A stretch of DNA of 9,335 bases, from assembly GCA_030630695.1 (NCBI GenBank), contig DAOVMP010000008.1, positions 1-9,335 of the forward strand, written 5' to 3'. Of this stretch, positions 1 to 9,335 are shown piece after piece. Within the stretch, counting starts at the first letter, position 1. Each line of letters begins with the position of its first letter. The position numbers and the translations under genes were made by a program. The notes beneath the pieces were generated by a model. The model worked only from the letters and a program-made list of their open reading frames with translations, searched no databases and was not told where the DNA came from. This DNA comes from Candidatus Woesearchaeota archaeon. GTDB taxonomy: Archaea > Nanobdellota > Nanobdellia > Woesearchaeales > ARS49.

Positions 1-603
1 AATATCGGATTTCAGCAAATACTACCATATGATGTGGATGCAATCTCCGGCTTAATGCATATTCGCGATACTAGAAATTTTTTTACATTATTACCTGTAG
101 GATCTGCTTTAGTCAAACTATCTGAAAGACATTTTACACCATTTGAAATAAAAGTACCATTATCTGAACTCAAAAAAGAAAAAATAAGCGATGCAGAACT
201 TAGTGAACGCATGAAAAAAATAGTTTTAGGAGAAAAAAGACTAAAACTTTTTAAAGAAAGAACGAATATTAGCAGTGTAAAGAAGCAATTACAGCGTGTG
301 GAGACTATAGCAAAAGCATCGGGAGTGAGACCACAAAAAGGAGATATGCTTAGTCAACCTATACTAGAATCATATTCATTTAGAAAAGAACAAAAAAAAT
401 TTTTAACGTACCTGAAAAGGCATCCCAAAATGGGAACAGCGAAAGTTTACGAGGCCCTAAAGCTCAGTGCACGAAAAGGCAATGAGATAAAAAAGGAACT
501 CGAAGGCTTGGGCTTTATCAAAGTAGCTGAAGTCAAGGATCAAAAAGGCTGGAGAAAAGTCATTGAGCTTACTGACCTGGGCGAAAAAGCACTAGAAGCC
601 TGA
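1..603 (+). CDS. HerA/FtsK-superfamily ATPase, C-terminal part (5' truncated)
   Basis: The reading frame is open from the first base of the window, so this is the 3' end of a longer gene; the in-frame GTG at 34 is probably internal. The first 55 or so codons (through LLPVGSALVKLSERHFTPFE) resemble the last strands of HerA/TraG/VirB4-type DNA-pumping ATPases, where a short 'leaves no more than a few residues, G-A-V-K' segment is followed by a PF(E/L)V(K/R)VP strand. A charged helical linker follows, and about codons 130-200 look like a winged helix (FLTYLKRHPKMGTAKVYEAL, then a basic recognition-helix region and LTDLGEKALEA). Proteins of this layout are known from archaeal integrated and conjugative-like elements. 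Walker motifs would lie upstream and cannot be checked. The family call is moderately sure, the winged helix more so. It could also be a HerA-type repair helicase variant. Confidence 0.6.
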   Translation, partial: NIGFQQILPYDVDAISGLMHIRDTRNFFTLLPVGSALVKLSERHFTPFEIKVPLSELKKEKISDAELSERMKKIVLGEKRLKLFKERTNISSVKKQLQRVETIAKASGVRPQKGDMLSQPILESYSFRKEQKKFLTYLKRHPKMGTAKVYEALKLSARKGNEIKKELEGLGFIKVAEVKDQKGWRKVIELTDLGEKALEA

Positions 604-611
604 AAACCGCT

Positions 612-641
612 CGTTATCGATGCTTTTGTCGTCGATAAACG
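612..641 (+). terminator. Hairpin after the ATPase gene, probable terminator
   Basis: TTATCGA (614-620) pairs with TCGATAA (632-638), extended by CG 612-613 with CG 640-641 across one bulged A. It begins 9 bases after the ATPase stop codon and is followed by a pyrimidine-rich stretch (648-660). The placement suggests transcription of the ATPase ends here, separating it from the RNA region downstream. Archaeal terminators often need only T-runs, so the hairpin's role is inference. Confidence 0.45.
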
Positions 642-671
642 GAAAACCTCTTTCTTTCTAGTAGTTTTTAG

Positions 672-681
672 TTTTAAAAAA
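672..681 (+). promoter_or_regulatory. TATA-like box for the large RNA
   Basis: An AT-only stretch (TTTTAAAAAA) lies in an AT-rich spacer immediately before the composition changes to GC-richer, structured sequence. A start about 25-28 bases downstream would fall near 700-706, at the GGGATTAGGG segment that opens the structured region. The spacer is AT-rich throughout, so the exact box is uncertain. Confidence 0.4.
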
Positions 682-725
682 TTCTATTTAACTTAAAAGG
701 GATTAGGGAAAACCAGGGAATGATT

Positions 726-755
726 TTGGAAAATCCTTTCCAAGAGGCGCGCCTC
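726..755 (+). other. RNA 5' hairpin plus adjacent 12-base palindrome
   Basis: TTGGAAA (726-732) pairs with TTTCCAA (737-743) around the loop ATCC. Immediately after is the self-complementary GAGGCGCGCCTC (744-755), which can form a 4-bp hairpin with a CGCG loop or dimerise two RNA copies. The two elements abut, so they could stack coaxially. Confidence 0.6.
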
Positions 756-782
756 GTGAATGAGTTGGATCCTAAGAATACT

Positions 783-806
783 GCCTGCATTGCGCCTCAT
801 GCAGGC
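783..806 (+). other. RNA hairpin, 8-bp perfect stem
   Basis: GCCTGCAT (783-790) pairs perfectly with ATGCAGGC (799-806) around an 8-base loop (TGCGCCTC). Confidence 0.6.
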
Positions 807-920
807 TTTGGGAATCTGCAAGGCATCTGTCTCTCCATTTTTGACCTTCCAAATCATATCTGGAATTCAGGTGCTTTGCTTTGAAGATAAACGCCGGGCA
901 CAAAGCTGCAGAGAAGTTAG

Positions 921-990
921 CAGTTCACGCATCTGTCCGCAGGATTAAAAATCCTACTGACATGACCTGGGTGCGCCCATGCGAGAACTG
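921..990 (+). other. RNA stem with single A-A mismatch enclosing a small hairpin
   Basis: CAGTTCACGCAT (921-932) pairs with ATGCGAGAACTG (979-990): 11 of 12 positions are Watson-Crick, with one central A927-A984 opposition. It encloses a perfect hairpin AGGATT (941-946), AAA loop, AATCCT (950-955). The nested arrangement is typical of a branched RNA domain. Confidence 0.6.
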
Positions 991-1010
991 ATCGGCAGAG
1001 GAGACGTAAA

Positions 1011-1077
1011 GCAGGCATTCTGCGGAAAAACGACTGATGCGAGAATAGGACAGTATCGTACTCAGTACGTCGCCTGC
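1011..1077 (+). other. RNA branched element
   Basis: GCAGGC (1011-1016) pairs with GCCTGC (1072-1077). Inside are ATTCT (1017-1021) with AGAAT (1042-1046), and the near-palindrome CGTACTCAGTACG (1057-1069). The helices are short and this fold is less certain than those downstream. Confidence 0.4.
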
Positions 1078-1107
1078 AACGGGACATTCTTTGCCGCAAA
1101 AGAGCCA

Positions 1108-1142
1108 AGGATTAGAGCAGACTACCATCATCTCTCAATCCT
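1108..1142 (+). other. RNA hairpin with bulged C
   Basis: AGGATT (1108-1113) pairs with AATCCT (1137-1142), continued by AGAG (1114-1117) with CTCT (1132-1135) after bulging C1136. The loop is 14 bases. Confidence 0.5.
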
Positions 1143-1145
1143 GTG

Positions 1146-1180
1146 CACCGCTCTCTTCTCGCAGCTGCCCGGTGTTTTTT
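1146..1180 (+). terminator. Terminator-like hairpin and T-run inside the RNA region
   Basis: CACCG (1146-1150) pairs with CGGTG (1170-1174), with the palindrome GCAGCTGC (1161-1168) in its loop, followed directly by six Ts (1175-1180). This may be an internal structural element, or the 3' end of a first RNA of about 480 bases with a second RNA beginning before 1199. Confidence 0.3.
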
Positions 1181-1198
1181 AAAAAGAGTCCTTCGCTT

Positions 1199-1260
1199 GC
1201 CCAGCAATGCAACTTCGCGCGACAAGCCTTCCATTCAAAACCTCATTAGCATTGCTGGGC
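1199..1260 (+). other. RNA hairpin A: perfect 12-bp stem, shared loop motif
   Basis: GCCCAGCAATGC (1199-1210) pairs without mismatch with GCATTGCTGGGC (1249-1260). The 38-base loop contains GCCTT (1226-1230) and CAAAACCTCA (1236-1245), which recur in the loop of the hairpin at 1296-1353. Confidence 0.75.
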
Positions 1261-1272
1261 TTTACATTATAC

Positions 1273-1291
1273 CCGTAACACTGAGTTACGG
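1273..1291 (+). other. RNA linker hairpin, 7-bp perfect stem
   Basis: CCGTAAC (1273-1279) pairs with GTTACGG (1285-1291) around the loop ACTGA. It sits between the two large hairpins that share a loop motif. Confidence 0.65.
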
Positions 1292-1295
1292 TCCT

Positions 1296-1353
1296 GTCTG
1301 ACCAAGTTTAGATACGATCGCCTTCAAAACACCTCACAATCACTTGGTCGGAC
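1296..1353 (+). other. RNA hairpin B: 12-bp stem with one G-U, shared loop motif
   Basis: GTCTGACCAAGT (1296-1307) pairs with ACTTGGTCGGAC (1342-1353); the only non-Watson-Crick pair is T1299-G1350, a G-U wobble in + strand RNA. The 34-base loop carries GCCTTCAAAACACCTCA (1320-1336), closely matching the loop of the hairpin at 1199-1260. Confidence 0.75.
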
Positions 1354-1364
1354 TTTAAACATTC

Positions 1365-1421
1365 ACGCAGGTCAAACTCGGGTGCTCCTTTCCCTGATGC
1401 ATTCCGAAAAATGGCCTGCGT
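1365..1421 (+). other. RNA stem, 9 bp with one G-U
   Basis: ACGCAGGTC (1365-1373) pairs with GGCCTGCGT (1413-1421); T1372-G1414 is a wobble. The 39-base interior has no strong helix that I can see. Confidence 0.5.
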
Positions 1422-1454
1422 TTGCCAACCCACTCGTAATATTATTTATTATGC

Positions 1455-1536
1455 GAGTTAATGCTTTGACTGACAAGAAATATACTCTGAACTTGCCACG
1501 TAGTTCGGCATTAACTCTGTCTGGCTATGTGGCAAG
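1455..1536 (+). other. Predicted H-type pseudoknot
   Basis: Two long helices cross. Stem 1 is GAGTTAATGC (1455-1464) with GCATTAACTC (1508-1517), 10 bp perfect. Stem 2 is CTTGCCACGTAG (1492-1503) with CTATGTGGCAAG (1525-1536), 12 bp with one G1500-T1528 wobble. The 5' arm of stem 2 lies inside stem 1 and its 3' arm outside, so both can form together only as a pseudoknot; otherwise they are alternative folds. Connecting segments are 27, 4 and 7 bases. The next hairpin begins immediately after, at 1537. Confidence 0.65.
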
Positions 1537-1565
1537 GTGCCGATTCATTCCGAATGAGTCGGCAT
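1537..1565 (+). other. RNA hairpin, 12-bp stem with two G-U pairs
   Basis: The arm 1537-1548 pairs with 1554-1565 (core TGCCGA with TCGGCA). T1544-G1558 and G1537-T1565 are wobbles on the + strand. The loop is TCCGA. It abuts stem 2 of the pseudoknot, allowing coaxial stacking. Confidence 0.7.
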
Positions 1566-1577
1566 TATTAAAAAACA

Positions 1578-1713
1578 ACTGGAGAGTCGGTGCCCTGGTA
1601 ACGGAAGGAGTGGTTTTCTTTTCAGGGGAAAAGTCGGTTGCCACTCTTTCCTACGGAGGAAGCACACCTGTTTTCGGGATAGGGACGTGTTTCCTCTAAG
1701 AAAACGCTCCAGT
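1578..1713 (+). other. RNA three-way junction with loop-flank pseudoknot
   Basis: ACTGGAG (1578-1584) with CTCCAGT (1707-1713) closes a domain with two arms. Arm 1: GGAAGGAGTGG (1603-1613) with CCACTCTTTCC (1641-1651), one G-U, continued by TTTTC (1614-1618) with GAAAA (1628-1632) after an 8-base bulge on the 3' side; the CAGGG (1623-1627) in its loop can pair with CCCTG (1593-1597) before the arm. Arm 2: GGAGGAAGCAC (1655-1665) with GTGTTTCCTCT (1687-1697), two G-U pairs, capped by CCTG/CGGG (1667-1670/1675-1678) around TTTT. Confidence 0.7.
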
Positions 1714-1714
1714 A

Positions 1715-1762
1715 GGCGGGGGAAGGCTATCTTGGAGCAATAGCACAAAAACTTCCCTTGCC
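1715..1762 (+). other. RNA hairpin, 11-bp plus 5-bp stacked stem
   Basis: GGCGGGGGAAG (1715-1725) pairs with CTTCCCTTGCC (1752-1762), with two G-U wobbles (1718-1759, 1719-1758). The 5' strand continues directly into GCTAT (1726-1730), which pairs with ATAGC (1740-1744). A 7-base A-rich bulge (1745-1751) interrupts only the 3' strand, and the loop is CTTGGAGCA. Confidence 0.7.
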
Positions 1763-1773
1763 CCCAACAATAA

Positions 1774-1787
1774 TCCTTGCAAAAGGA
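1774..1787 (+). other. GNRA-capped RNA hairpin
   Basis: TCCTT (1774-1778) pairs with AAGGA (1783-1787) around GCAA (1779-1782), a GNRA tetraloop. Such loops commonly dock into receptors elsewhere in large RNAs. Confidence 0.55.
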
Positions 1788-1816
1788 AAAAGATAAAAGT
1801 TCTTCATTCTTGACCA

Positions 1817-1860
1817 TGCAGGAGAAGATGTTCTCTCGTGAGGACCACTCTTCTCCTGCA
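1817..1860 (+). other. RNA hairpin, perfect 12-bp stem
   Basis: TGCAGGAGAAGA (1817-1828) pairs without mismatch with TCTTCTCCTGCA (1849-1860) around a 20-base loop. Confidence 0.75.
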
Positions 1861-1912
1861 AACAAAACCGTGCGTTCCTGGTGTTCAAGGGATTACAGGG
1901 GAAACTGGGAGA

Positions 1913-1928
1913 AACGGTTCGAACCGTT
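1913..1928 (+). repeat. 16-base perfect palindrome within the RNA
   Basis: AACGGTTCGAACCGTT is fully self-complementary. In RNA it forms a 6-bp stem with a TCGA loop, or it could pair two molecules. It follows a copy of the motif that also opens the RNA at 697-719. Confidence 0.65.
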
Positions 1929-1964
1929 CGGGCCTAAAACACCGGCTTGAGGAAGGAGAAACCT

Positions 1965-2072
1965 ATGAAGGAAAAGTCCAGGGCATCGCCCAGCAGCTGC
2001 AAAGAAGAAGCCGCCAAGAAGAAAGAGGCCTCCGAGAAGACAGAGGTCCACGAGAAGAAGAAGGCAAGCTGA
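1965..2072 (+). other. Possible 35-codon ORF embedded in the RNA
   Basis: ATG at 1965 follows AAGGAG (1953-1958) by 6 bases, ideal Shine-Dalgarno spacing, and the frame runs to TGA at 2070. The peptide starts MKEKSRASPSSCKEEAAKKK and continues as a Lys/Glu-rich, low-complexity chain. A purine-rich unpaired RNA segment would give a similar sequence by composition alone, so translation is unproven. A second strong motif, AAAAGGAGGT (2092-2101), is followed only by TTG starts with 15-16 codon frames. Confidence 0.2.
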
Positions 2073-2230
2073 GAAAAGGCCCGCAACACGGAAAAGGAGG
2101 TACAATTTGATTGTCCCACATCTTCGCCATCTTTCCGAAAACAAAGAGGAATAGCGACTGAAGGTAAAGGTTGCTAGATCGATTTAGGACAACAGAAAAA
2201 AAATGCCAGGAACGCACTTGAACTTCTGTC

Positions 2231-2245
2231 GTGCGCAAGGCGCGT
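2231..2245 (+). other. RNA hairpin, GC-rich stem
   Basis: GCGC (2233-2236) pairs with GCGC (2240-2243) around AAG, with two outer G-T pairs (2232-2244, 2231-2245). Confidence 0.4.
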
Positions 2246-2320
2246 TTACCCGAAAGGATTGTCGCAACATGGAGGGCTCTGATTTGCTTGTACAATTCCT
2301 CTAGACGCCTTGGTTAAAAT

Positions 2321-2360
2321 GCTCAGAAGCGTCTGAGCCACGAGAGCAATCTATCTCTCG
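2321..2360 (+). other. Two small RNA hairpins before the 3' end
   Basis: GCTCAG (2321-2326) pairs with CTGAGC (2333-2338), and CGAGAG (2341-2346) pairs with CTCTCG (2355-2360). Upstream AGACGC (2303-2308) can instead pair with GCGTCT (2329-2334), which overlaps the first hairpin and gives an alternative fold. Confidence 0.5.
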
Positions 2361-2368
2361 CATAAAGT

Positions 2369-2440
2369 AAGACCAGTGACTGAGAAATCGAATTGACACT
2401 CGATTTACTTGGAAGACGCTGGTCTTTTGCTATTTATTTT
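2369..2440 (+). terminator. 3' hairpin and T-rich tail of the large RNA
   Basis: AAGACCAGTG (2369-2378) pairs with CGCTGGTCTT (2417-2426), one G-U. Inside it AAATCGA (2385-2391) pairs with TCGATTT (2400-2406). The outer stem runs straight into TTTT and a T-rich stretch (2423-2440), as expected for transcription ending. After this point the sequence returns to AT-rich. Confidence 0.6.
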
Positions 2441-2471
2441 CTATATGGAAAGGAATCATTATTAGATAGGG

Positions 2472-2505: not shown

Positions 2506-3354
2506 TTAAAGAGATTTAATATAATCCTGCTTGAATATAAAACCATTCTGTCTTGCTAACCTTGCAATGCATTTGTCGAAATAACTGCCGTATTGCGCTG
2601 CTTTTTTTGGACGCCAAGCATATTTTTTAAGCAAACCTAAGTCTTGAGCAATTTCTCTAAGAATGATTTTTTTATTTTTTTGGTCTATTTTTCTTTTAGC
2701 TGGAATACCCATAGCTGTTTTGATTAGGTTTTCATCTAAGAAAGGAGTTATTAACTTAACTTTCATTGCATTAGCAATAGCATAATCTCTTTTCAAATCT
2801 CTCTGCCACATTGATTTTAATCTTTTCCAGCATTCTTTATGCACATCTTCTGCTTCATCATGAAAATGATAGCCTGCAAAGATCTCTTCTGAGCCTAAAC
2901 CTGTAAAAAAAGTATCTATCTTATCTTTTTTACCTAATTCTATTGCCTGAACAAACACAGAACCTACCCCTATAGATAATGTATCAATATGTTTAAGCGT
3001 TTTCTTAGTTCGTTTGAATAATTTTTCCATTTCATCAAACTTTAGAACTTTTGTTTTTAATTTTAGATTATATTTTTTAGCAATTTCTTTTGCCCAGACC
3101 AAATCTGGGGAGTTCTCCAAACCAACAGAGTAACAAATAAAGTTAGCTTTGACTTTTTTACACAAATAGGCAATTAAAGTAGAATCTACACCTCCTGAAA
3201 ACAAAATTCCGAATTTTTTCTTTGGAATACTATCTTGAATGGCTTTTAATATTGATTTCTTTAATACTTGTTTTGTTGTTTTTTTCTCTTTATTTGATTC
3301 TTTTTCTAACTTAACTATTTTCTTGTTCCAATCCTTCTCTGGAATAAGTTTCAT
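2506..3354 (-). CDS. Stand-alone asparagine-synthetase-type PP-loop amidotransferase
   Basis: The 282-residue protein matches the synthetase (C-terminal) domain of AsnB-type enzymes: PP-loop SGGVDST (53-59) for ATP, GLGSEEIFAGY (152-162) corresponding to the AsnB SG-x-G-x-DE-(L/I)FGGY segment, a DLKRDYAIANAMKVKLITPFLD-type block (186-207, written as its key residues D186, R189, P204, F205, D207), and AWRPKKAAQYGS near 246-257. The N-terminal glutaminase domain with its catalytic Cys is absent; instead there are about 45 Lys-rich residues. It should adenylate a carboxylate or similar group, using ammonia directly or from a partner; the substrate is unknown. Its ATG overlaps the stop codon of the PUA gene upstream (ATGA), implying coupled translation. 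The pairing with a Nip7-like RNA-binding protein suggests RNA or tRNA modification, though plain asparagine synthesis is possible. Confidence 0.75.
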   Translation of the reverse strand: MKLIPEKDWNKKIVKLEKESNKEKKTTKQVLKKSILKAIQDSIPKKKFGILFSGGVDSTLIAYLCKKVKANFICYSVGLENSPDLVWAKEIAKKYNLKLKTKVLKFDEMEKLFKRTKKTLKHIDTLSIGVGSVFVQAIELGKKDKIDTFFTGLGSEEIFAGYHFHDEAEDVHKECWKRLKSMWQRDLKRDYAIANAMKVKLITPFLDENLIKTAMGIPAKRKIDQKNKKIILREIAQDLGLLKKYAWRPKKAAQYGSYFDKCIARLARQNGFIFKQDYIKSL

Positions 3355-3815
3355 GGCAAATCCTCAATCATCAACCTTCTTGCCTTAGGAACAAAATTAA
3401 GAATCTTATCTTCCATGACTTTTCCACAACCCATGAAATCTGTTTTATTTTTAATTATAACAAAATCTTTTTCTTTTACTTTTAATGCAATATCAATTCC
3501 TTTAAGCCATGGCACTACAAAAACATCAGGAATCTCAACAATATTTTTTTTAGCTAAAGGACCTATTAACTGCGAACCCTCAATACTTAATCTTAATTTT
3601 TCTTTTCTATACTCACCAAAATACATTCCAACAGTATTAATTGTTAATTTATCCAAATCAACTTTACCAATATCTTTGTTAGCTATATAAATTCTATTCT
3701 TAGTATTCATTAAAAAAGCAAAATCATCTTTAAAATCCGCGCCCCATTGTTCTTTTATTAATTTCTTAAAAAACTTAATTTCTTTTGAAGGCAAAATCCT
3801 TAAAGAATCTTTCAT
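3351..3815 (-). CDS. Nip7-like PUA-domain RNA-binding protein
   Basis: The 154-residue protein has the size and two-domain layout of archaeal Nip7-like (COG1374-type) proteins: an alpha/beta pre-PUA domain (1 to about 75, with LRILPSKEIKFFKKL at the start) and a C-terminal PUA domain beginning LRLSIEGSQLIGP (74-86) and ending with a glycine-bearing DFMGCGKV turn and two strands. PUA domains bind structured RNA; Nip7 takes part in ribosome assembly in eukaryotes, and archaeal members are thought to act similarly. It starts directly after the infB stop codon (the two are contiguous) and overlaps the amidotransferase by 4 bases, so the three are surely cotranscribed. In this context it could deliver the amidotransferase to an RNA target. 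I am confident of the PUA fold, less so of Nip7 orthology. Confidence 0.7.
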   Translation of the reverse strand: MKDSLRILPSKEIKFFKKLIKEQWGADFKDDFAFLMNTKNRIYIANKDIGKVDLDKLTINTVGMYFGEYRKEKLRLSIEGSQLIGPLAKKNIVEIPDVFVVPWLKGIDIALKVKEKDFVIIKNKTDFMGCGKVMEDKILNFVPKARRLMIEDLP

Positions 3816-5564
3816 TTAAACACCCCAAACAGGATTTTTCTCACGCATTAAAACAGCAATCTCTTTTAACAAATCCTTTTCATCTTGTGACAAGTACTGT
3901 TTATACTCTTTGAATTTTCTAAAATCTTCTTCAGGAACTAAAGAATACAATGTATCTCCTTCTTTAATCTGCCTTCCAATAATAACACCTGTTAAAGAAA
4001 CAGCAATTCTTTTACCTTTTTCAGCTTCACTGATAGATTTCTGCTCTTCCTGAATACCTTTAACACTTGTTACTACTTTTGCCTCTTTATTCATCAAAGA
4101 AATATTAGTTGTCAAAGTTCCGCTTAAAACATCTGCACCAATCACTGCAGGATTAGACTGTCTAAAAGTATAACCTTTTAACAATTGAATCTTACACGGC
4201 TTTGTTAAAACACCCATAGATTTTAATTCCATTTGTTTTTTAGTATCTATCTGCCATTTTTCCAAATCTTCTATAAGCTTATATATAACATCATGACAAA
4301 TTACTTTAACTTTATCTGAAATACTTTCTGGAGCTTCTAAATTAAAACCTAAAACAATAGATAACAATGGATTCTTATCAAAATTAGCTTCTGCATCAGA
4401 CATATCTCTTTTACTAATAGGTCCTACACTTGCTTTTTTAATCTGAATATTTTTTTCCTTTAATAAATTAGATAATGCTTCTAAAGAACCTAAAGAATCT
4501 GCCTTGATTACAATACCCTGCTCATCTGTTTCTAATAAAACTTCTTCAATTTGTTGTTTGATTTCTTGTTTTGCTTTTTCTTCATCCATTCCTGATATTA
4601 ACGGCATTCCTGAAACAACATCTTCAACACCTGGAGCAATAATTCTCACTCCACTTGCTGCTGTAATTTCCTTAATTGATTTGAATTTTGCTCTTTTATC
4701 ACGCATTTCTGCCAATGGTGCTGGGATGAACAAAGCTTTAACTCTTGATACAACAGGTCCTGTTAAACCGCCAACAACTAAAGTTTCACCAACTCTTAAA
4801 CAACCATTGTAAATGATTGCATCCATCACTTTACCCATTCCTTTTTCTTCTTTAACTTCTAAAACAGTTCCTTTAGCCGGGCCTTCTGTATTACATTCTA
4901 AACATTTTTCCAGGTACTTTTGTGCTAAACCAGTTAAAACCATTAATAACTCTGGAATACCATCACCTGTTTTAGCAGAAACCGGAACAATAGCAACTGT
5001 TTTAGCATAATCATCAACTCTATCAAATCTTTCAGAATTTAAACCATGTTCTGATAGTTGACCTACTATTTCATAGATTTTCTTGTCTATTTCATTTATT
5101 ACTTGATCGTTTTGTTTTTTTATCGTTGATAAAATCGGTCCTTTTTCAGATCTGAAACCGCTTATAAGATCTATTTTATTAGCAGCAATAATAAAAGGCG
5201 TTTTGTAAGATTTTAAAATCTCAATAGATTCAATTGTTTGCGGTTTTAATCCTTCACTAATATCTATAACTAAAATTGCCATGTCTGCTAAATTACCGCC
5301 TCTTTTTCTTAAACTAGTAAACGCTGCATGACCAGGAGTGTCTATGAATAATAAACCAGGAATTGTTAATTTTAAGTTTAATTGATCTAATAACGATCCA
5401 CAAACTTTTTTAATAGTTTCAGTAGGTATAATAGAAGCACCAATAGCCTGAGTAATTCCGCCTGCCTCTTTTGCTGCGATAGCACTGCCTCTAATCTTAT
5501 CTAGAACACTAGTTTTTCCATGATCCACATGACCCATCATAGCCACAATAGGTTGTCTTATCAT
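3816..5564 (-). CDS. infB: Translation initiation factor aIF5B
   Basis: This is the archaeal form of IF2/eIF5B, the GTPase that joins ribosomal subunits and helps seat the initiator tRNA. The 582 residues match the usual archaeal length of about 600, without the long N-terminal extension of eukaryotes and with no intein. GTPase motifs are in order: G1 GHVDHGKT (11-18), switch I GGITQAIGAS (35-44), G3 DTPGH (75-79), G4 NKID (129-132), G5 SAKTGDG (196-202). Beta-barrel domain II (about 230-340), domain III and the C-terminal barrel follow, including GVIIGRQIKEGD near 540. The ATG at 5564 is supported by the G1 position and by a TATA-like box 27 bases upstream. It is the first gene of the operon with the Nip7-like and PP-loop genes. 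Confidence 0.96.
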   Translation of the reverse strand: MIRQPIVAMMGHVDHGKTSVLDKIRGSAIAAKEAGGITQAIGASIIPTETIKKVCGSLLDQLNLKLTIPGLLFIDTPGHAAFTSLRKRGGNLADMAILVIDISEGLKPQTIESIEILKSYKTPFIIAANKIDLISGFRSEKGPILSTIKKQNDQVINEIDKKIYEIVGQLSEHGLNSERFDRVDDYAKTVAIVPVSAKTGDGIPELLMVLTGLAQKYLEKCLECNTEGPAKGTVLEVKEEKGMGKVMDAIIYNGCLRVGETLVVGGLTGPVVSRVKALFIPAPLAEMRDKRAKFKSIKEITAASGVRIIAPGVEDVVSGMPLISGMDEEKAKQEIKQQIEEVLLETDEQGIVIKADSLGSLEALSNLLKEKNIQIKKASVGPISKRDMSDAEANFDKNPLLSIVLGFNLEAPESISDKVKVICHDVIYKLIEDLEKWQIDTKKQMELKSMGVLTKPCKIQLLKGYTFRQSNPAVIGADVLSGTLTTNISLMNKEAKVVTSVKGIQEEQKSISEAEKGKRIAVSLTGVIIGRQIKEGDTLYSLVPEEDFRKFKEYKQYLSQDEKDLLKEIAVLMREKNPVWGV

Positions 5565-5586
5565 AGTTAGAAGCTAAATAGTGGGA

Positions 5587-5596
5587 TTTTAAAAAA
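5587..5596 (-). promoter_or_regulatory. TATA-like box of infB
   Basis: Minus strand TTTTTTAAAA, centred about 27 bases before the infB ATG, which fits a leaderless or near-leaderless archaeal transcript. Confidence 0.5.
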
Positions 5597-5612
5597 CTTT
5601 GCAAAGGCAAAG
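5597..5612. repeat. Inverted repeat between divergent promoters
   Basis: CTTTGC (5597-5602) and GCAAAG (5607-5612), 4 bases apart, lie exactly between the TATA-like boxes of infB and the divergent lipoprotein gene. A dimeric regulator could bind here and affect both. No regulator is identified. Confidence 0.4.
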
Positions 5613-5613
5613 C

Positions 5614-5623
5614 TTTAAATATT
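5614..5623 (+). promoter_or_regulatory. TATA box of the lipoprotein gene
   Basis: TTTAAATATT, a good archaeal TATA sequence, centred 26 bases upstream of the ATG at 5644. With no Shine-Dalgarno before the ATG, a leaderless transcript is likely. Confidence 0.6.
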
Positions 5624-5643
5624 TCTAGAATATAGAATATAGT

Positions 5644-5988
5644 ATGTACAATCGAATAAGAACTTATGCAGCATGCGCAATATCTACATTTTTACTAGCT
5701 GCATGTGCACCTTCACCAATTACTAAAGATATGCATCCTAAAACAGACATTTATACACCAGATTCATATAAAACTGGTATGAACGATTTAATTCTTAGCG
5801 ACAATCTTTCAAAAATGGGAATCGCAATGTTATTAGAATTAAGAAAAGAGGAAGCATTCAGATCCAAAGCTGCCCGTATTACATTAGATTCTTTAGCTGT
5901 TAGAAAACGAGCAGATGAAGTAACTACTAAAGAAGAATTTGATGAAGCAGCAAAAAAATCACTTGAAGATATTGCCAAAAAAGAGTAA
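5644..5988 (+). CDS. Small predicted lipoprotein, unknown function
   Basis: The 114-residue product begins with a basic, hydrophobic signal peptide (MYNRIRTYAACAISTFLLAA) and a lipobox, L18-A19-A20-C21, so Cys21 is probably lipidated and the protein anchored to the outer face of the cytoplasmic membrane. The mature part is short: a Pro/Thr-rich stretch after the Cys, then predicted helices rich in Lys, Glu and Ala to the end. I recognise no enzyme motif or family. The ATG is supported by the TATA box 26 bases upstream. It is divergent from infB and convergent with the peptidase gene, so it is probably transcribed alone. It may be a helical surface protein or partner of an envelope complex, but nothing in the sequence decides this. 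Confidence 0.75.
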   Translation: MYNRIRTYAACAISTFLLAACAPSPITKDMHPKTDIYTPDSYKTGMNDLILSDNLSKMGIAMLLELRKEEAFRSKAARITLDSLAVRKRADEVTTKEEFDEAAKKSLEDIAKKE

Positions 5989-6001
5989 ATAACTACTTCT
6001 A

Positions 6002-6034
6002 AATATATTCTCAATAAGGATATATTGATTTTTT
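6002..6034 (+). terminator. Hairpin plus T6 after the lipoprotein gene
   Basis: AATATAT (6002-6008) pairs with ATATATT (6020-6026), followed by a run of six Ts (6029-6034), 14 bases after the stop codon. The stem is all A-T and weak; the T-run alone would be enough in an archaeon. Confidence 0.45.
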
Positions 6035-6057
6035 AAATGTTTGGTAGGAAAATAGAA

Positions 6058-7077
6058 CTAATCCAATGCAGCCAAATCTAACTTAACTTCTCTAAGAACT
6101 TCTTCAACATCATAAGGCAATCTAATCAGCTTTCTTTGTTCTCTTTGCTCAACTATTTCTCCTATTTGGTCTGCAATTTCTTCATCTGCTAGAATAATAA
6201 TAGGATCATCTCTTGCTGCAAGTCCATCTTCAAAACGGCCCTGAAAATAATTATTTAAAAAGTAATCTACTCTACCAAAGTGAACAAGAGGTTCTTCTCC
6301 TATTTTTTCTCTTAAAATATCCGTAGGCCCTGTATGAGTATTTTCATGCTCTACAATTGCATCAGTAATTAATCGCGTATCCATAATAACCATATCATAA
6401 TGGATTATCTCACCACTAACTAATTCAGGCATATACCAAAGTTTTTGCAATAATCCTTCAAACTCTGCTTCATCAGAAGTATACCTTACATCAAAATCTT
6501 CTTGTTTAAGTCTTTTAACAAGTTCATAATGAACAGCTGGCTTTCCTCCTAAAAAGATATATCTTTTAGGAAATGCTTTATCAGCAATAGCATCACAAAT
6601 TTCTTCTTCAAGTTCATCTGCAATACCTGTTCCATCTGGATGCCATCCTCTTCCTTGAAATTCTGGAACTTTATTTTCTCCTTCCCATTTATAAAATAAT
6701 GTGTGTGCTAATTCATGCCATTTAGAACGCATTTTATCATTTTCTGTTTGATTTCTAAAAGGATTTAAACCAATAAAAAATCCTCCGGTTATTGGATACA
6801 ATCTTGCCGTTGAACTAATAGATTCTTTTTTTCCATCCTTATACTCAATTACTATTTCTTTATCGCCTTTTACCTGATTTCTTTCATAATATTCAGAAGG
6901 ATCTGCAAATGCTTTAGGTTCTTCGCCGCATAAATAATGAAGTGCTCCGCTGGCTAAACTACCCATAAAAAAACCAGGTTCATTTATTGATTCAAAACCA
7001 ATTGCCTCTTTTAATATCTCACATAAATACATTGTAGGAGAATTTTCTTTTGTAAACTCCGGCGTTTCTTCATCCAT
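6058..7077 (-). CDS. HELAH zinc metallopeptidase with receiver-like C-terminal domain
   Basis: The start chosen is the ATG at 7077 (MDEETPEF), giving 339 residues: a TATA box lies 28 bases upstream, whereas extending the frame to 7140 needs a TTG start and adds a hydrophobic 21-residue stretch. Residues 121-125 are HELAH, the HExxH zinc site, and the downstream E158/E159-I-C-D-A-I-A-D segment fits the third ligand and helix of ImmA/IrrE-like peptidases, which cleave repressors or regulators. From about 172 to the end the protein resembles a response-regulator receiver: YIFLGG strand, helix, YDMVIMDTR with D233 at the phosphoacceptor position, IIILADEE strand, and IRLPYDVEEVLREV where receivers have a (K)P(F/Y) turn. 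Many insertions separate these and the usual Lys is not clear, so it may be a pseudo-receiver. Targets are unknown. The N-terminal 100 residues are of unknown fold. Confidence 0.7.
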   Translation of the reverse strand: MDEETPEFTKENSPTMYLCEILKEAIGFESINEPGFFMGSLASGALHYLCGEEPKAFADPSEYYERNQVKGDKEIVIEYKDGKKESISSTARLYPITGGFFIGLNPFRNQTENDKMRSKWHELAHTLFYKWEGENKVPEFQGRGWHPDGTGIADELEEEICDAIADKAFPKRYIFLGGKPAVHYELVKRLKQEDFDVRYTSDEAEFEGLLQKLWYMPELVSGEIIHYDMVIMDTRLITDAIVEHENTHTGPTDILREKIGEEPLVHFGRVDYFLNNYFQGRFEDGLAARDDPIIILADEEIADQIGEIVEQREQRKLIRLPYDVEEVLREVKLDLAALD

Positions 7078-7231: not shown

Positions 7232-7269
7232 CATAAGTCGTTATCGACTATAATTGGGGGGAAGAAAAT

Positions 7270-8226
7270 ATGAAAACAAAAATTTTAAGCGCGCTTTGTA
7301 TTCTATTGATAACTTTACTAGCCTCCAGTGCTATTGCATTACCAATAGATATACAGAAAGTTGAAATTGACGATGAAAGAGTCGATGACAACCAAGAAAT
7401 AAGACTTGACGTTGAAAGAGGACAAGATGTTGAAATCGAACTAACAATTGTACCAATTGAAGACGTTGAAGACATTGAAATAAGAGCATTTATTTCTGGA
7501 TACGAGTACAATGACTTTGAAAGCATTGCAGACTCAATCGGTCCAATAAGCATGGACGCAGGAATAAAATACAGAAAAACACTAACAATAACTCTACCTG
7601 AAGATGTAGAAGAAGACGACTACAAACTAAGAATATTATTCACAGACAGAAACGGCGAAGATTCATTCTTGCTGGCATACAGATTAAAAATTGACCTGCC
7701 ACGACACGAACTGAAAATTACCGACGTTCTATTCCATCCAGGAAAAAACGTTAAAGCTGGAACAGCATTGCTGGGCCAAGTACGCGTTGAAAACATGGGT
7801 GAAAAAGATGAAGATGACATTGTTGTAAAGATAATGATTCCAGAATTAGGAATATCTGCAACAGACTACATCGATGAAATCGAGAGCGGAGAACAAGAAG
7901 AAACAGAAGAACTATACCTGAGAATTCCTGACACAGCAGAACCAGGAATATACCAAGCACAAATATACATTGGTTACAATAACAACCACGATAAAGTGCT
8001 GGCAACCTCAGTATTAAACATCGAAGCAAGCGACAGAGTACAAAACGTGCCTGAAGAAACAATAGTTGTTGTAGAACAAGTACAAGAAACAACTCAAGAC
8101 GTTGTTCCTGCAACAAACTGGAAAAGCACAATAAAAACAATGCTTGAAGTAGTATTGCTTGTGTTAGTTGCTCTATTAGTTGTAATCGGATTAATAATCG
8201 GATTTACAAGACTAGGAAGAGACTAA
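7270..8226 (+). CDS. Secreted membrane-anchored acidic beta-domain protein
   Basis: The 318-residue product has a signal peptide (residues 1 to about 24, MKTKILSALCILLITLLASS then AIALP), two successive beta-rich regions (about 25-145 and 146-255) and a C-terminal transmembrane helix (about 289-312, LEVVLLVLVALLVVIGLIIG) followed by a short basic tail, the topology of an envelope protein displayed outside the cell. The second region (LKITDVLFHPGKNVKAGTAL, then VRVENMGEKDEDDIVVKI) resembles the CARDB/COG1361-type Ig-like modules of archaeal surface proteins. It is strongly acidic (many Asp/Glu). Between the second domain and the helix is a Gln/Val/Thr-rich linker (about 256-285). Codon choice favours A-ending codons like alaS downstream. 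Function is unknown; a surface or adhesion role is inferred from topology alone. Confidence 0.75.
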   Translation: MKTKILSALCILLITLLASSAIALPIDIQKVEIDDERVDDNQEIRLDVERGQDVEIELTIVPIEDVEDIEIRAFISGYEYNDFESIADSIGPISMDAGIKYRKTLTITLPEDVEEDDYKLRILFTDRNGEDSFLLAYRLKIDLPRHELKITDVLFHPGKNVKAGTALLGQVRVENMGEKDEDDIVVKIMIPELGISATDYIDEIESGEQEETEELYLRIPDTAEPGIYQAQIYIGYNNNHDKVLATSVLNIEASDRVQNVPEETIVVVEQVQETTQDVVPATNWKSTIKTMLEVVLLVLVALLVVIGLIIGFTRLGRD

Positions 8227-8231
8227 ATCTG

Positions 8232-8262
8232 TTTTTTTTATTTTTATTTTCTTTTTCTTTTT
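8232..8262 (+). terminator. Long T-rich terminator tract
   Basis: Five successive T-runs (of 8, 5, 4, 5 and 5 bases) broken by single A or C lie just after the stop codon of the secreted-protein gene. This is the typical hairpin-free archaeal terminator. Confidence 0.6.
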
Positions 8263-8276
8263 AATAACAAAAACCT

Positions 8277-8284
8277 TAATAAAC
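8277..8284 (+). promoter_or_regulatory. TATA-like box of alaS
   Basis: TTAATAAA, centred 27 bases before the ATG at 8307, consistent with a leaderless alaS transcript. Confidence 0.5.
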
Positions 8285-8306
8285 CTATACTCGATTTCTT
8301 AATCTT

Positions 8307-9335
8307 ATGACACGGAAATATCCATGCGGGTGTAGTGCTAAGAAGTATTTTGAATCTGATGAAGAGCTTAAAAAACACTATAAAGCAGAGTATTCTTCAG
8401 ATCCGTCTGTGAATTATCCTGTTAAAACACTCAAAAACAATGATTTTGTGCGGAAAAAATGTTCGTGCGGGCAATATTTTTGGTCGACAGATACAAAACG
8501 CGAGATATGCGGCGAACCAATCTGTGCAGGAGGATTTAGCTTTATAGGTAATAGTCCTTGCACTAAACAACTAAATTACATACAAGTATGGGAAGAATTC
8601 TCTAAAATACACAAGGAACTAGGATATACACCAATTAAACGCTATCCAGTAGTCGCACGCTGGAATCCAACAACTGAATTCACAATCGCTTCAATAGCAG
8701 CATTTCAGCCATATGTAGTATCAGGCGAAGTAGAACCACCTGCAAATCCATTAGTTATCCCGCAATTTTGTTTACGATTCCCAGATATAGATAATGTTGG
8801 ATTAACAGGACACTTTACTGGCTTTGTAATGCTAGGAGAACACGCATTCTTATCACCATCAGAGTATAATGTTAATAAATTATTACAAGATCACTTGATT
8901 TGGTTAAAAGACGGCATGGGACTTCCATTTGATGAAATAGTTATTCACGAAGACATATGGGCTGGTGGAGGAAATTTCGGGCCATGCTTAGAATTCTTTG
9001 TTAGAGGACTAGAAGTTTCAAATCAAGTATACATGCAATATGAAAATACTTCTTCAGGACCAAAAGAACTACAAATAAAAGTATTAGACATGGGACAAGG
9101 ACATGAAAGAGCAGCATGGATAACACAAGGAACACCAACATCATACGATGCTACATTTCCAACAGTAATAGAAAAACTAAAAGCAAAAACAAACATTAAA
9201 ATTGATTCTTTATTTATGAAAAAATTTGTTCACTTAGCGGCATATCTCAATGTTTTAGAATTTAAAGACATAGAAAAACAATGGAAAATCGTTGCTGAAA
9301 AAATAGGAATGAATATTGATAAATTAAAAGAAAAA
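8307..9335 (+). CDS. alaS: Alanyl-tRNA synthetase, N-terminal part (runs off the window)
   Basis: The frame from ATG 8307 stays open for 343 codons to the window end, so the 3' part is missing. AlaRS charges tRNA-Ala with alanine in the cytoplasm. Archaeal-type features in order: FVRKKCSCGQYFW (47-59) with C52, C54, C68 and C73, the zinc-binding segment at the start of archaeal AlaRS; IKRYPVVARW (motif 2 region); IASIAAFQPYVVSGEVEPPA with the following ANPL; a MLGEHAF block; and WAGGGNFGPCLEFFVRGLEV, the GGGN segment of the active site. The editing and C-terminal domains lie beyond the window. A 43-residue extension precedes the usual start, with C7-G-C9 and H24 spaced like part of a zinc finger. 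The start is backed by a TATA box 27 bases upstream and the absence of a better ATG. Confidence 0.93.
   Translation, partial: MTRKYPCGCSAKKYFESDEELKKHYKAEYSSDPSVNYPVKTLKNNDFVRKKCSCGQYFWSTDTKREICGEPICAGGFSFIGNSPCTKQLNYIQVWEEFSKIHKELGYTPIKRYPVVARWNPTTEFTIASIAAFQPYVVSGEVEPPANPLVIPQFCLRFPDIDNVGLTGHFTGFVMLGEHAFLSPSEYNVNKLLQDHLIWLKDGMGLPFDEIVIHEDIWAGGGNFGPCLEFFVRGLEVSNQVYMQYENTSSGPKELQIKVLDMGQGHERAAWITQGTPTSYDATFPTVIEKLKAKTNIKIDSLFMKKFVHLAAYLNVLEFKDIEKQWKIVAEKIGMNIDKLKEK

Follow-up and report, generated by a model that had tools for sequence, protein, structure and literature searches.

A hairpin array beside a HerA-like ATPase gene in Woesearchaeota probably represents one form of a rapidly changing island

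Results

A hairpin array in the HerA flank

A 9,335-nucleotide stretch of a Candidatus Woesearchaeota contig (the window) carries, beside a gene for a HerA-like ATPase that resembles DNA pumps, a 1.8-kb plus-strand region (604–2440). This region is probably one form of a rapidly changing island that combines RNA hairpins with tiny genes, not a single giant RNA. Judging from the sequence, we give about an even chance to a hypervariable, hairpin-punctuated island, probably transcribed into a long RNA of which almost nothing is translated. The array is better framed as 604–2458, from the HerA stop codon to the end of a near-palindrome (Table 1).

Table 1. Features of the array and its flanks
Feature	Position	Strand	Basis or remark
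HerA-like ATPase gene, 3' end (200 aa)	1..603	+	open frame; truncated by contig start
Non-coding hairpin array	604..2440	+	GC, folding z, stem excess, coding tests
Hairpin TTATCGATG/CGTCGATAA, common to G002	614..638	+	
8-bp hairpin, then TTTGGG	783..806	+	
12-bp hairpin, covarying counterpart in G002 (L045 2408–2468)	818..879	+	
Two crossing helices, 921–932/979–990 and 936–945/1017–1026, possible pseudoknot	921..1026	+	both loops under 80
Perfect 12-bp hairpin, 38-base loop	1199..1260	+	
12-bp hairpin, 34-base loop	1296..1353	+	
10-bp hairpin, 37-base loop	1365..1421	+	
Two adjacent hairpins, 1492–1536 and 1538–1564	1492..1564	+	z -5.6 for 1401–1600
Three hairpins, 1603–1651, 1656–1696 and 1715–1762	1603..1762	+	z -4.2 for 1601–1800
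Perfect 12-bp hairpin, 20-base loop	1817..1860	+	
Candidate tiny ORF, 35 aa, lysine/glutamate-rich	1965..2072	+	AGGAGA leads
Candidate 15-codon TTG frame	2107..2154	+	AGGAGGT leads
Terminal hairpin, then TTGCTATTTATT; terminator-like (candidate)	2369..2426	+	comparable ends: G002, G001, G000:C113, G311, G135
Near-palindrome TATTTATTTTC-TATATG-GAAAGGAATCA	2431..2458	.	7/11 arm positions
Asparagine-synthase-like gene	2506..3354	-	convergent flank

The region is non-coding and rich in local hairpins

As originally predicted, the region is GC-richer than its neighbours: in 300-base bins, GC content is 0.41–0.52 from 601 to 2400 and 0.26–0.41 elsewhere in the window. Raised GC as a family trait was dropped, the mean downstream difference over 24 loci being -0.002. 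The absence of a credible protein gene was borne out for genes of ordinary size. The longest open reading frame in 604–2440 (110 aa) is at the level of 200 dinucleotide shuffles (109 ± 26; 84 reach 110), and the period-3 GC signal, at 6.9, 52.8 and 22.2 in three of the window's genes, drops to 0.6 here. The two species with the array, the window's source and its sister G002, revealed no conserved reading frame. Scanning for Shine-Dalgarno-led frames of at least 12 aa revealed no excess in the window (6 on the plus versus 5 on the minus strand) and none at all in G002, and candidate ORFs are far fewer than hairpins in both. Over seven arrays, GGAGG-type words number 18 on the plus strand and 6 on the minus strand.

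A scan for local stems (loop 3–80, score at least 24) found 11 in 604–2440, compared with 1.0 ± 0.8 across 25 shuffled versions; four control segments taken from the window yielded 0, 1, 0 and 0, and the minus strand of the region 6. Stems with loops of 81–200 bases were at chance (8 versus 8.1 ± 2.3 in shuffles), and the supported long-range helices that define a giant ornate RNA were thus not found. Enriched local stems together with long-range stems at chance are the pattern expected of separate hairpins. On the plus strand, folding z over consecutive 200-base windows was -2.8, -5.6, -4.2 and -2.6 between 1201 and 2000, -1.3 at 801–1000, and between -0.3 and +0.3 at 601–800, 1001–1200, 2001–2200 and 2201–2400.

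The predicted number of at least 18 helices is reached by 20 stems with non-overlapping arms (score at least 19, loops up to 120), several of which are at chance level. Both the perfect 12-bp stems (1199–1260 and 1817–1860) and the terminator-like end, a candidate terminator, were recovered. Where two crossing-helix pseudoknots had been proposed, one crossing pair falls in the enriched class: five helices interlace at 921–1163, and only the pair listed in Table 1 has both loops under 80.

The array turns over between sister species

Flanked by the same gene pair, another hairpin array, of 0.7 kb, occupies this place in the sister species G002; its sequence is mostly unalignable with the window, and in a further sister, G001, the interval has no array. 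The only clearly matching hairpin (window 818–879) appears to covary with its G002 counterpart: 23 of 23 cells are paired, 2 changes are two-sided and 2 one-sided, a result for one hairpin in two species that 107 of 500 shuffles also reach. Across the order, 7 of 8 pairs within a genus lose DNA similarity in the downstream flank close to the HerA stop.

Downstream flanks differ among loci, some holding hairpin arrays and others tiny Shine-Dalgarno-led ORFs with intervening hairpins. Within the initial 2 kb, only 5 of 24 other loci have at least four strong hairpins; all 24 have at least 1,500 bases of downstream DNA (the threshold also used for the GC count). Tiny Shine-Dalgarno-led ORFs with hairpins between them are likewise seen in L058 and in the G261 upstream flank. 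Contig C113, which bears L058, probably lies upstream of the present HerA gene, as judged by synteny with G001; this contig (G000:C113) ends 10 bases past the palindrome. L058 has duplicated hairpins between its small ORFs; pairing in them is kept at 93.6%, and 2 changes are two-sided. Small genes in the islands L058 and L046 appear to be homologous to one another. Among 5.8 billion proteins, the L058 lipoprotein and a 481-aa protein of L048 each had one match, identical to the query; a PDB search with the L048 protein gave nothing below E 0.2.

The HerA-sense strand folds

We employed a strand-symmetric test that counts G.T versus A.C pairs continuing stems from perfect Watson-Crick seeds, so that no strand can be favoured by seed choice. 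In 30 downstream flanks, G.T exceeded A.C by 32 to 10 (p = 9e-4), compared with 9:9 in upstream flanks and 7:5 in HerA. Stricter seeds in the downstream flanks gave 18:2, 12:1 and 9:1, and symmetrically picked windows 20:1; the window alone gave 4:0, which is not significant. Continuation of stems by G.T rather than A.C means that the HerA-sense strand folds, as RNA would, and single-stranded DNA would give the same result. Over the set of downstream flanks there is therefore a folding bias of the HerA-sense strand, as RNA or single-stranded DNA.

A looser, unselected count in the downstream flanks showed no bias (332:335); within this count, seven of the chosen arrays gave 94:37 and the 22 loci outside the eight chosen by eye gave 196:239. 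The ORF-bearing upstream islands were also unbiased (27:28 and 18:18). An early count of 104:42 was set aside as biased because the scan by which its arrays had been chosen accepts G.T pairs and rejects A.C pairs. The looser count and the Watson-Crick-seed test used loci with at least 700 bases of downstream DNA; two of 34 HerA matches (G350 and G260:C94), cut by contig ends, were left out.

The 3' palindrome

The palindrome is multi-copy in many genomes. It adjoins orc1/cdc6 at 5 of 16 sites with listed neighbours, with the domains confirmed, and stands at the start of Lhr-type helicase genes in L093 (domains confirmed) and, by eye, L102 and L107. Given this copy number and these neighbours, the idea of a Xer/dif-like site marking where a mobile island ends was dropped, and a regulator's site fits better; the palindrome may still have a role in recombination.

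The neighbouring ATPase

The 200-aa fragment in the window is 93% identical to the C-terminus of the G002 protein and 80% to that of G001 (proteins of 588–592 aa). A Pfam search with this fragment alone gave no match; the full-length G001 protein contains PF01935 (DUF87). Scores for PF01935 exceed the curated cutoff of 23.2 bits in L046 (41.5), L047 (28.8) and L048 (32.2), placing these proteins in the HerA/DUF87 superfamily. The best specific NCBIfam match of the L046 and L048 proteins is CedD (E 6e-17 and 3e-16), at 61.4 and 59.2 bits against the equivalog cutoff of 600 bits (NF053655). By sequence, the ATPase resembles DNA translocases of the CedD/VirB4 type at scores below their cutoffs. 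CedD is reported to be necessary for DNA import in Saccharolobus (PMC11868833). A search of 352 genomes of the order located this HerA-like gene in 32 of them at E <= 1e-60.

Database searches

The Rfam 15 covariance models matched nothing in the region up to E 5, as the original prediction had expected of an undescribed RNA; two weak matches lie elsewhere in the window (5580–5736 and 6459–6544), and ten related loci gave one tRNA only at the gathering threshold. Besides itself, the region matched only 23–81 bases in 9 other genomes among 96 relatives and in 4 other genomes among 352 of the order, and its own bin gave two weak, short matches. Phages and plasmids yielded no match to the region up to E 0.1, and viral contigs none to its 105-aa chance frame, the HerA C-terminus or full HerA. 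Apart from Shine-Dalgarno words and TTTTGGAAAA (3 of 7 arrays), no 9- to 11-mer was common to the seven arrays, the only 9-mer in at least four being a Shine-Dalgarno word; the conserved core sites that would place the hairpins in integrons were not found in these arrays. Our literature searches turned up no description of such a hairpin island in the HerA flank.

Discussion

A single giant ornate non-coding RNA, acting as one folded RNA or RNP, appears unlikely. Its size, strong plus-strand folding over 1201–2000, non-coding nature, one crossing-helix pair, terminator-like end and the sense-strand bias over related loci would suit such a molecule, but the long-range helices are at chance level, one sister has a version of 0.7 kb that for the most part does not align and the other sister has none, Rfam gives no match, and z is near 0 in four windows. 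What survives of the predicted giant structured RNA in an archaeon is a long, structured region, non-coding in bulk and without an Rfam match, rather than one compact giant RNA. Its assignment to the class of OLE, GOLLD and ROOL found no support, given the exclusive enrichment of local hairpins, the state of the two sisters and the tiny ORFs of related islands. Quite improbable is a mobile element of plasmid or virus type, integrated or reduced to a remnant, that brought its cargo and hairpins to a hotspot beside the HerA operon: array GC unlike its flanks, the abrupt drop in similarity close to the HerA stop when sister species are compared, the orphan proteins of related islands and contigs ending near such islands (G000:C113, 10 bases after the palindrome) agree with it, against which stand the lack of phage or plasmid matches and of HerA relatives in viral contigs, direct-repeat ends that were not identified, and a downstream GC whose mean over 24 loci shows no rise.

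More improbable still are hairpins that act as single-stranded DNA, through integron-like cassette recombination or DNA transfer by the neighbouring translocase. The strand test, which cannot tell RNA from single-stranded DNA, and a neighbour resembling CedD leave room for this, but the seven arrays have no common core word. Decayed small genes without present function, with hairpins as leftovers, are the least probable account; the window has only tiny frames while L058 and L046 hold small genes, yet the hairpin excess, the compensatory change in one hairpin and the strand-asymmetric wobble over related loci together point to selection on pairing.

In the hairpin-punctuated island that we favour, the array sits in a variable flank of the Woesearchaeota HerA-like ATPase operon and would be transcribed as a long, nearly untranslated RNA. 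Its hairpins would punctuate a series of tiny cistrons that are gained and lost, and may shield or end cistron-sized pieces of the transcript; the copy in this genome would be such an island in a state poor in ORFs, possibly linked to the work of the ATPase. A bolder proposal, which we regard as possible but doubtful, is a new kind of archaeal RNA locus, in which large hairpin-array RNAs are rebuilt almost from scratch between sisters while staying fixed beside a HerA/CedD-like translocase operon, a structured RNA class held together by position and architecture rather than sequence and perhaps acting with the translocase in DNA exchange. If this reading of the locus is right, archaeal loci for structured RNA whose sequence turns over within a genus escape RNA discovery based on sequence, and RNA structure would be tied to the surroundings of a DNA translocase in a lineage where little is known of DNA exchange. 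The flanks of the HerA-like gene offer a handle for collecting and testing more examples.

Like OLE, GOLLD and ROOL (PMC12286853), the array is large, highly structured and non-coding. These RNAs are described by covariance models that span the family, and fold compactly with many helices (PMC12286853), whereas the array has no Rfam match, shows enrichment of local hairpins only and undergoes sequence turnover between sister species; tRNA is absent from the window. The neighbouring ATPase has the DUF87/HerA core in common with the DNA-translocating ATPases CedD, VirB4 and HerA (PMC11868833). It differs from CedD in scoring about 60 bits against the cutoff of 600. Integron cassette arrays carry attC hairpins, and in both systems hairpins lie between small ORFs and fold as single strands, but the hairpins of the islands have no core word in common. 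Hypervariable genomic islands and the intergenic hairpins of operons likewise combine variable content at a fixed place with hairpins beside stop codons; compared with operon hairpins in general, those of the array fill most of 1.8 kb, with almost no cistrons between them.

An ORF-poor, hairpin-rich region downstream of a HerA-like ATPase gene

The window is one entire contig of a 699-kb bin of 66% completeness; among public records, its closest relatives belong to Candidatus Woesearchaeota. As originally predicted, bases 604-2440 are GC-rich and hold no credible protein gene: the longest ORF is 110 aa vs 109 in shuffles, and a period-3 signal is absent, indicating that the region is non-coding in bulk. 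An Rfam search, one of the checks proposed with that prediction, found no family match within it. The further proposal of a giant structured RNA was borne out in part. Local hairpins are about elevenfold more frequent than in shuffles, whereas helices with 81-200-base loops show no excess over chance, leaving a long-range fold unsupported. Folding scores are strong on the + strand at 1201-2000 and about zero in four other 200-base windows of the region. We interpret the region as the ORF-poor state of a hypervariable island punctuated by hairpins.

Coordinates of the region, the palindrome, candidate frames and related islands
Feature	Location	Description
Region	604-2440, window	flanked by the end of the HerA-like ATPase gene and, convergently, by an asparagine-synthase-like gene
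Near-palindrome	2431-2458, window	consensus TTATTATTTTC-YATATN-GAAAATAATAA
Candidate 35-aa frame	1965, window	outside strong hairpins; Shine-Dalgarno scan
Candidate 15-codon frame	2107, window	outside strong hairpins; Shine-Dalgarno scan
Second island of the window's bin (L058, G000:C113)	3700-6742	similar by eye to the island in G001
Island, sister species G001 (L046)	2900-4290	similar by eye to the island in L058

The interval varies between relatives

In the sister species G002 (JAFGHW010000012.1), the same two flanking genes enclose about 0.7 kb at 45% GC that carries hairpins of its own, and in G001 (WJKI01000001.1) they enclose about 0.24 kb of 27% GC that lacks the array of hairpins and in which a 75-aa frame can be read on the opposite strand. 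Window and G002 can be aligned as far as about 664, over 2424-2451 and again starting at 2502; only short, weakly similar pieces were found between the aligned parts. A hairpin at 614-638 is common to both, and the terminal stem-loop occupies the same position with a different sequence. Hairpin 818-879 has a convincing G002 counterpart, with pairing in 23 of 23 cells, both members altered in two pairs and a single member in two others; with only two sequences, this result was reached in 107 of 500 letter shuffles between them, and it was lost in each of six slid registers.

Four full-length HerA-like proteins were aligned, and a search with this alignment (E <= 1e-60) yielded 34 matches in 32 of the 352 genomes of the order; 32 of the 34 were analysed. 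In blastn comparisons of 11 locus pairs, similarity spanned HerA and stopped at most 267 bases beyond its stop in nine, except for one 38-base match farther out; in G317/G316 it extended 466 bases, reaching the end of the G316 contig, and G347/G348 gave no blastn match. Seven of the eight same-genus pairs fall among the nine; in three of the loci involved (G318, G272 and G312), under 2 kb of DNA is present downstream. The operon interior can vary too: G275 has, immediately upstream of HerA (about -2743 to -1785 relative to the end of HerA), 958 bases with one weak inverted repeat that are missing in its congeners G276 and G060. In G001 and G311 (JACOVM010000072.1), HerA is preceded by a gene that, judged by eye, is coiled-coil-like and rich in lysine and glutamate.

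Arrays are not universal: at least four strong hairpins occur in the first 2 kb at 5 of 24 other loci, and none at G001, G261, G275, G276, G092 and G348. G311 carries hairpins whose arms reach 30 bp across 1.8 kb containing no frame above 135 aa, and in G343 12 hairpins score >=24 across 1.3 kb, with one internal, Shine-Dalgarno-led frame of 62 aa; arrays in G111, G135 and G238 are smaller or mixed. Hairpin density (score >=26) is 3.8/kb in the window and 8.2/kb in G002 vs 0.34/kb in upstream flanks, a contrast that is not independent evidence because the arrays were selected for their hairpins. In G311, an orphan 481-aa protein (7257-8702 of the locus) is encoded in a GC-rich stretch downstream of HerA. 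Searches of Pfam, NCBIfam and PADLOC gave no match for it, and no further homologue was found; a partial frame in G312 (JACPCA010000012.1; 7837-8517 of its locus) is similar to it by eye.

Islands with small ORFs

The second island of the window's bin has at its end a copy of the same palindrome together with a hairpin and a T-run; the gene preceding this island presumably encodes an OBG-like GTPase. G001 has the same GTPase, then an island with the same type of end, then the HerA operon; by this synteny, C113 would be joined to the window's HerA. Read by eye, both islands contain Shine-Dalgarno-led small membrane proteins, a lipoprotein and a lysine-rich peptide, with hairpins separating several of the small genes. 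Three related hairpins in the bin's second island have 93.6% of cells paired and two two-sided changes; its lipoprotein found no relative except itself among 5.8 billion proteins. Hairpins likewise alternate with small Shine-Dalgarno-led frames in the G261 upstream flank. GGAGG-type words in seven downstream arrays number 18 on the + strand vs 6 on the other; a broader Shine-Dalgarno scan of the window gave 6 frames on + vs 5 on -.

The folding strand and molecule

A single strand that folds gains stability from G.T pairs, and on the opposite strand the identical positions read A.C. Stems were seeded with perfect Watson-Crick pairing, which favours neither strand, and the first break that let the stem continue was scored. 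Across 30 downstream flanks, each at most 3 kb long, G.T outnumbered A.C by 32 to 10, vs 9 to 9 upstream and 7 to 5 inside HerA; strand-symmetrically picked windows gave 20 to 1 downstream and 3 to 4 upstream. The window alone gave 4 to 0, which is not significant. A looser count of the same downstream flanks returned 332:335, its missing bias probably due to chance stems. Taken over the downstream flanks, the strand test suggests that it is the HerA-sense strand that folds. The folding molecule is most simply RNA; single-stranded DNA could instead be the molecule that folds. The hairpins may protect, terminate or insulate transcripts.

A shared palindrome

With up to three mismatches, the palindrome occurs in 61 of 96 related genomes, and the backwards-read pattern in 6 of 96; of 16 sites inspected, 5 have an orc1/cdc6 gene nearby. 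The half-site ATTTTC agrees with ANTTTC, the element to which Orc1-2 of Sulfolobus binds in its own promoter (PMC9738581). From sequence, a candidate Orc1-type regulon is possible in Woesearchaeota. Three contigs (G000:C113, G002:C28 and G002:C47) end about 10-45 bases from a palindrome copy, and such assembly breaks may reflect population variation.

Comparison with known systems

Literature on Woesearchaeota structured or noncoding RNA, on OLE, GOLLD or ROOL with archaea, on HerA with hypervariable islands or DPANN, and on large or giant structured RNA in archaea or DPANN did not describe the locus in the titles and abstract openings of the matches listed, subscription papers lying outside this scope. 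PMC6851277 concerns a hypervariable protein gene of a bacterium and is unrelated. The neighbouring ATPase is HerA-like and resembles the DNA-translocating ATPase CedD (PMC11868833), scoring below the CedD cutoff. In its single-strand folding and near-absence of coding, the region is like a long structured RNA, for which the giant bacterial RNAs OLE, GOLLD and ROOL (PMC12286853) provide the background, a single RNA and its transcription being putative here.
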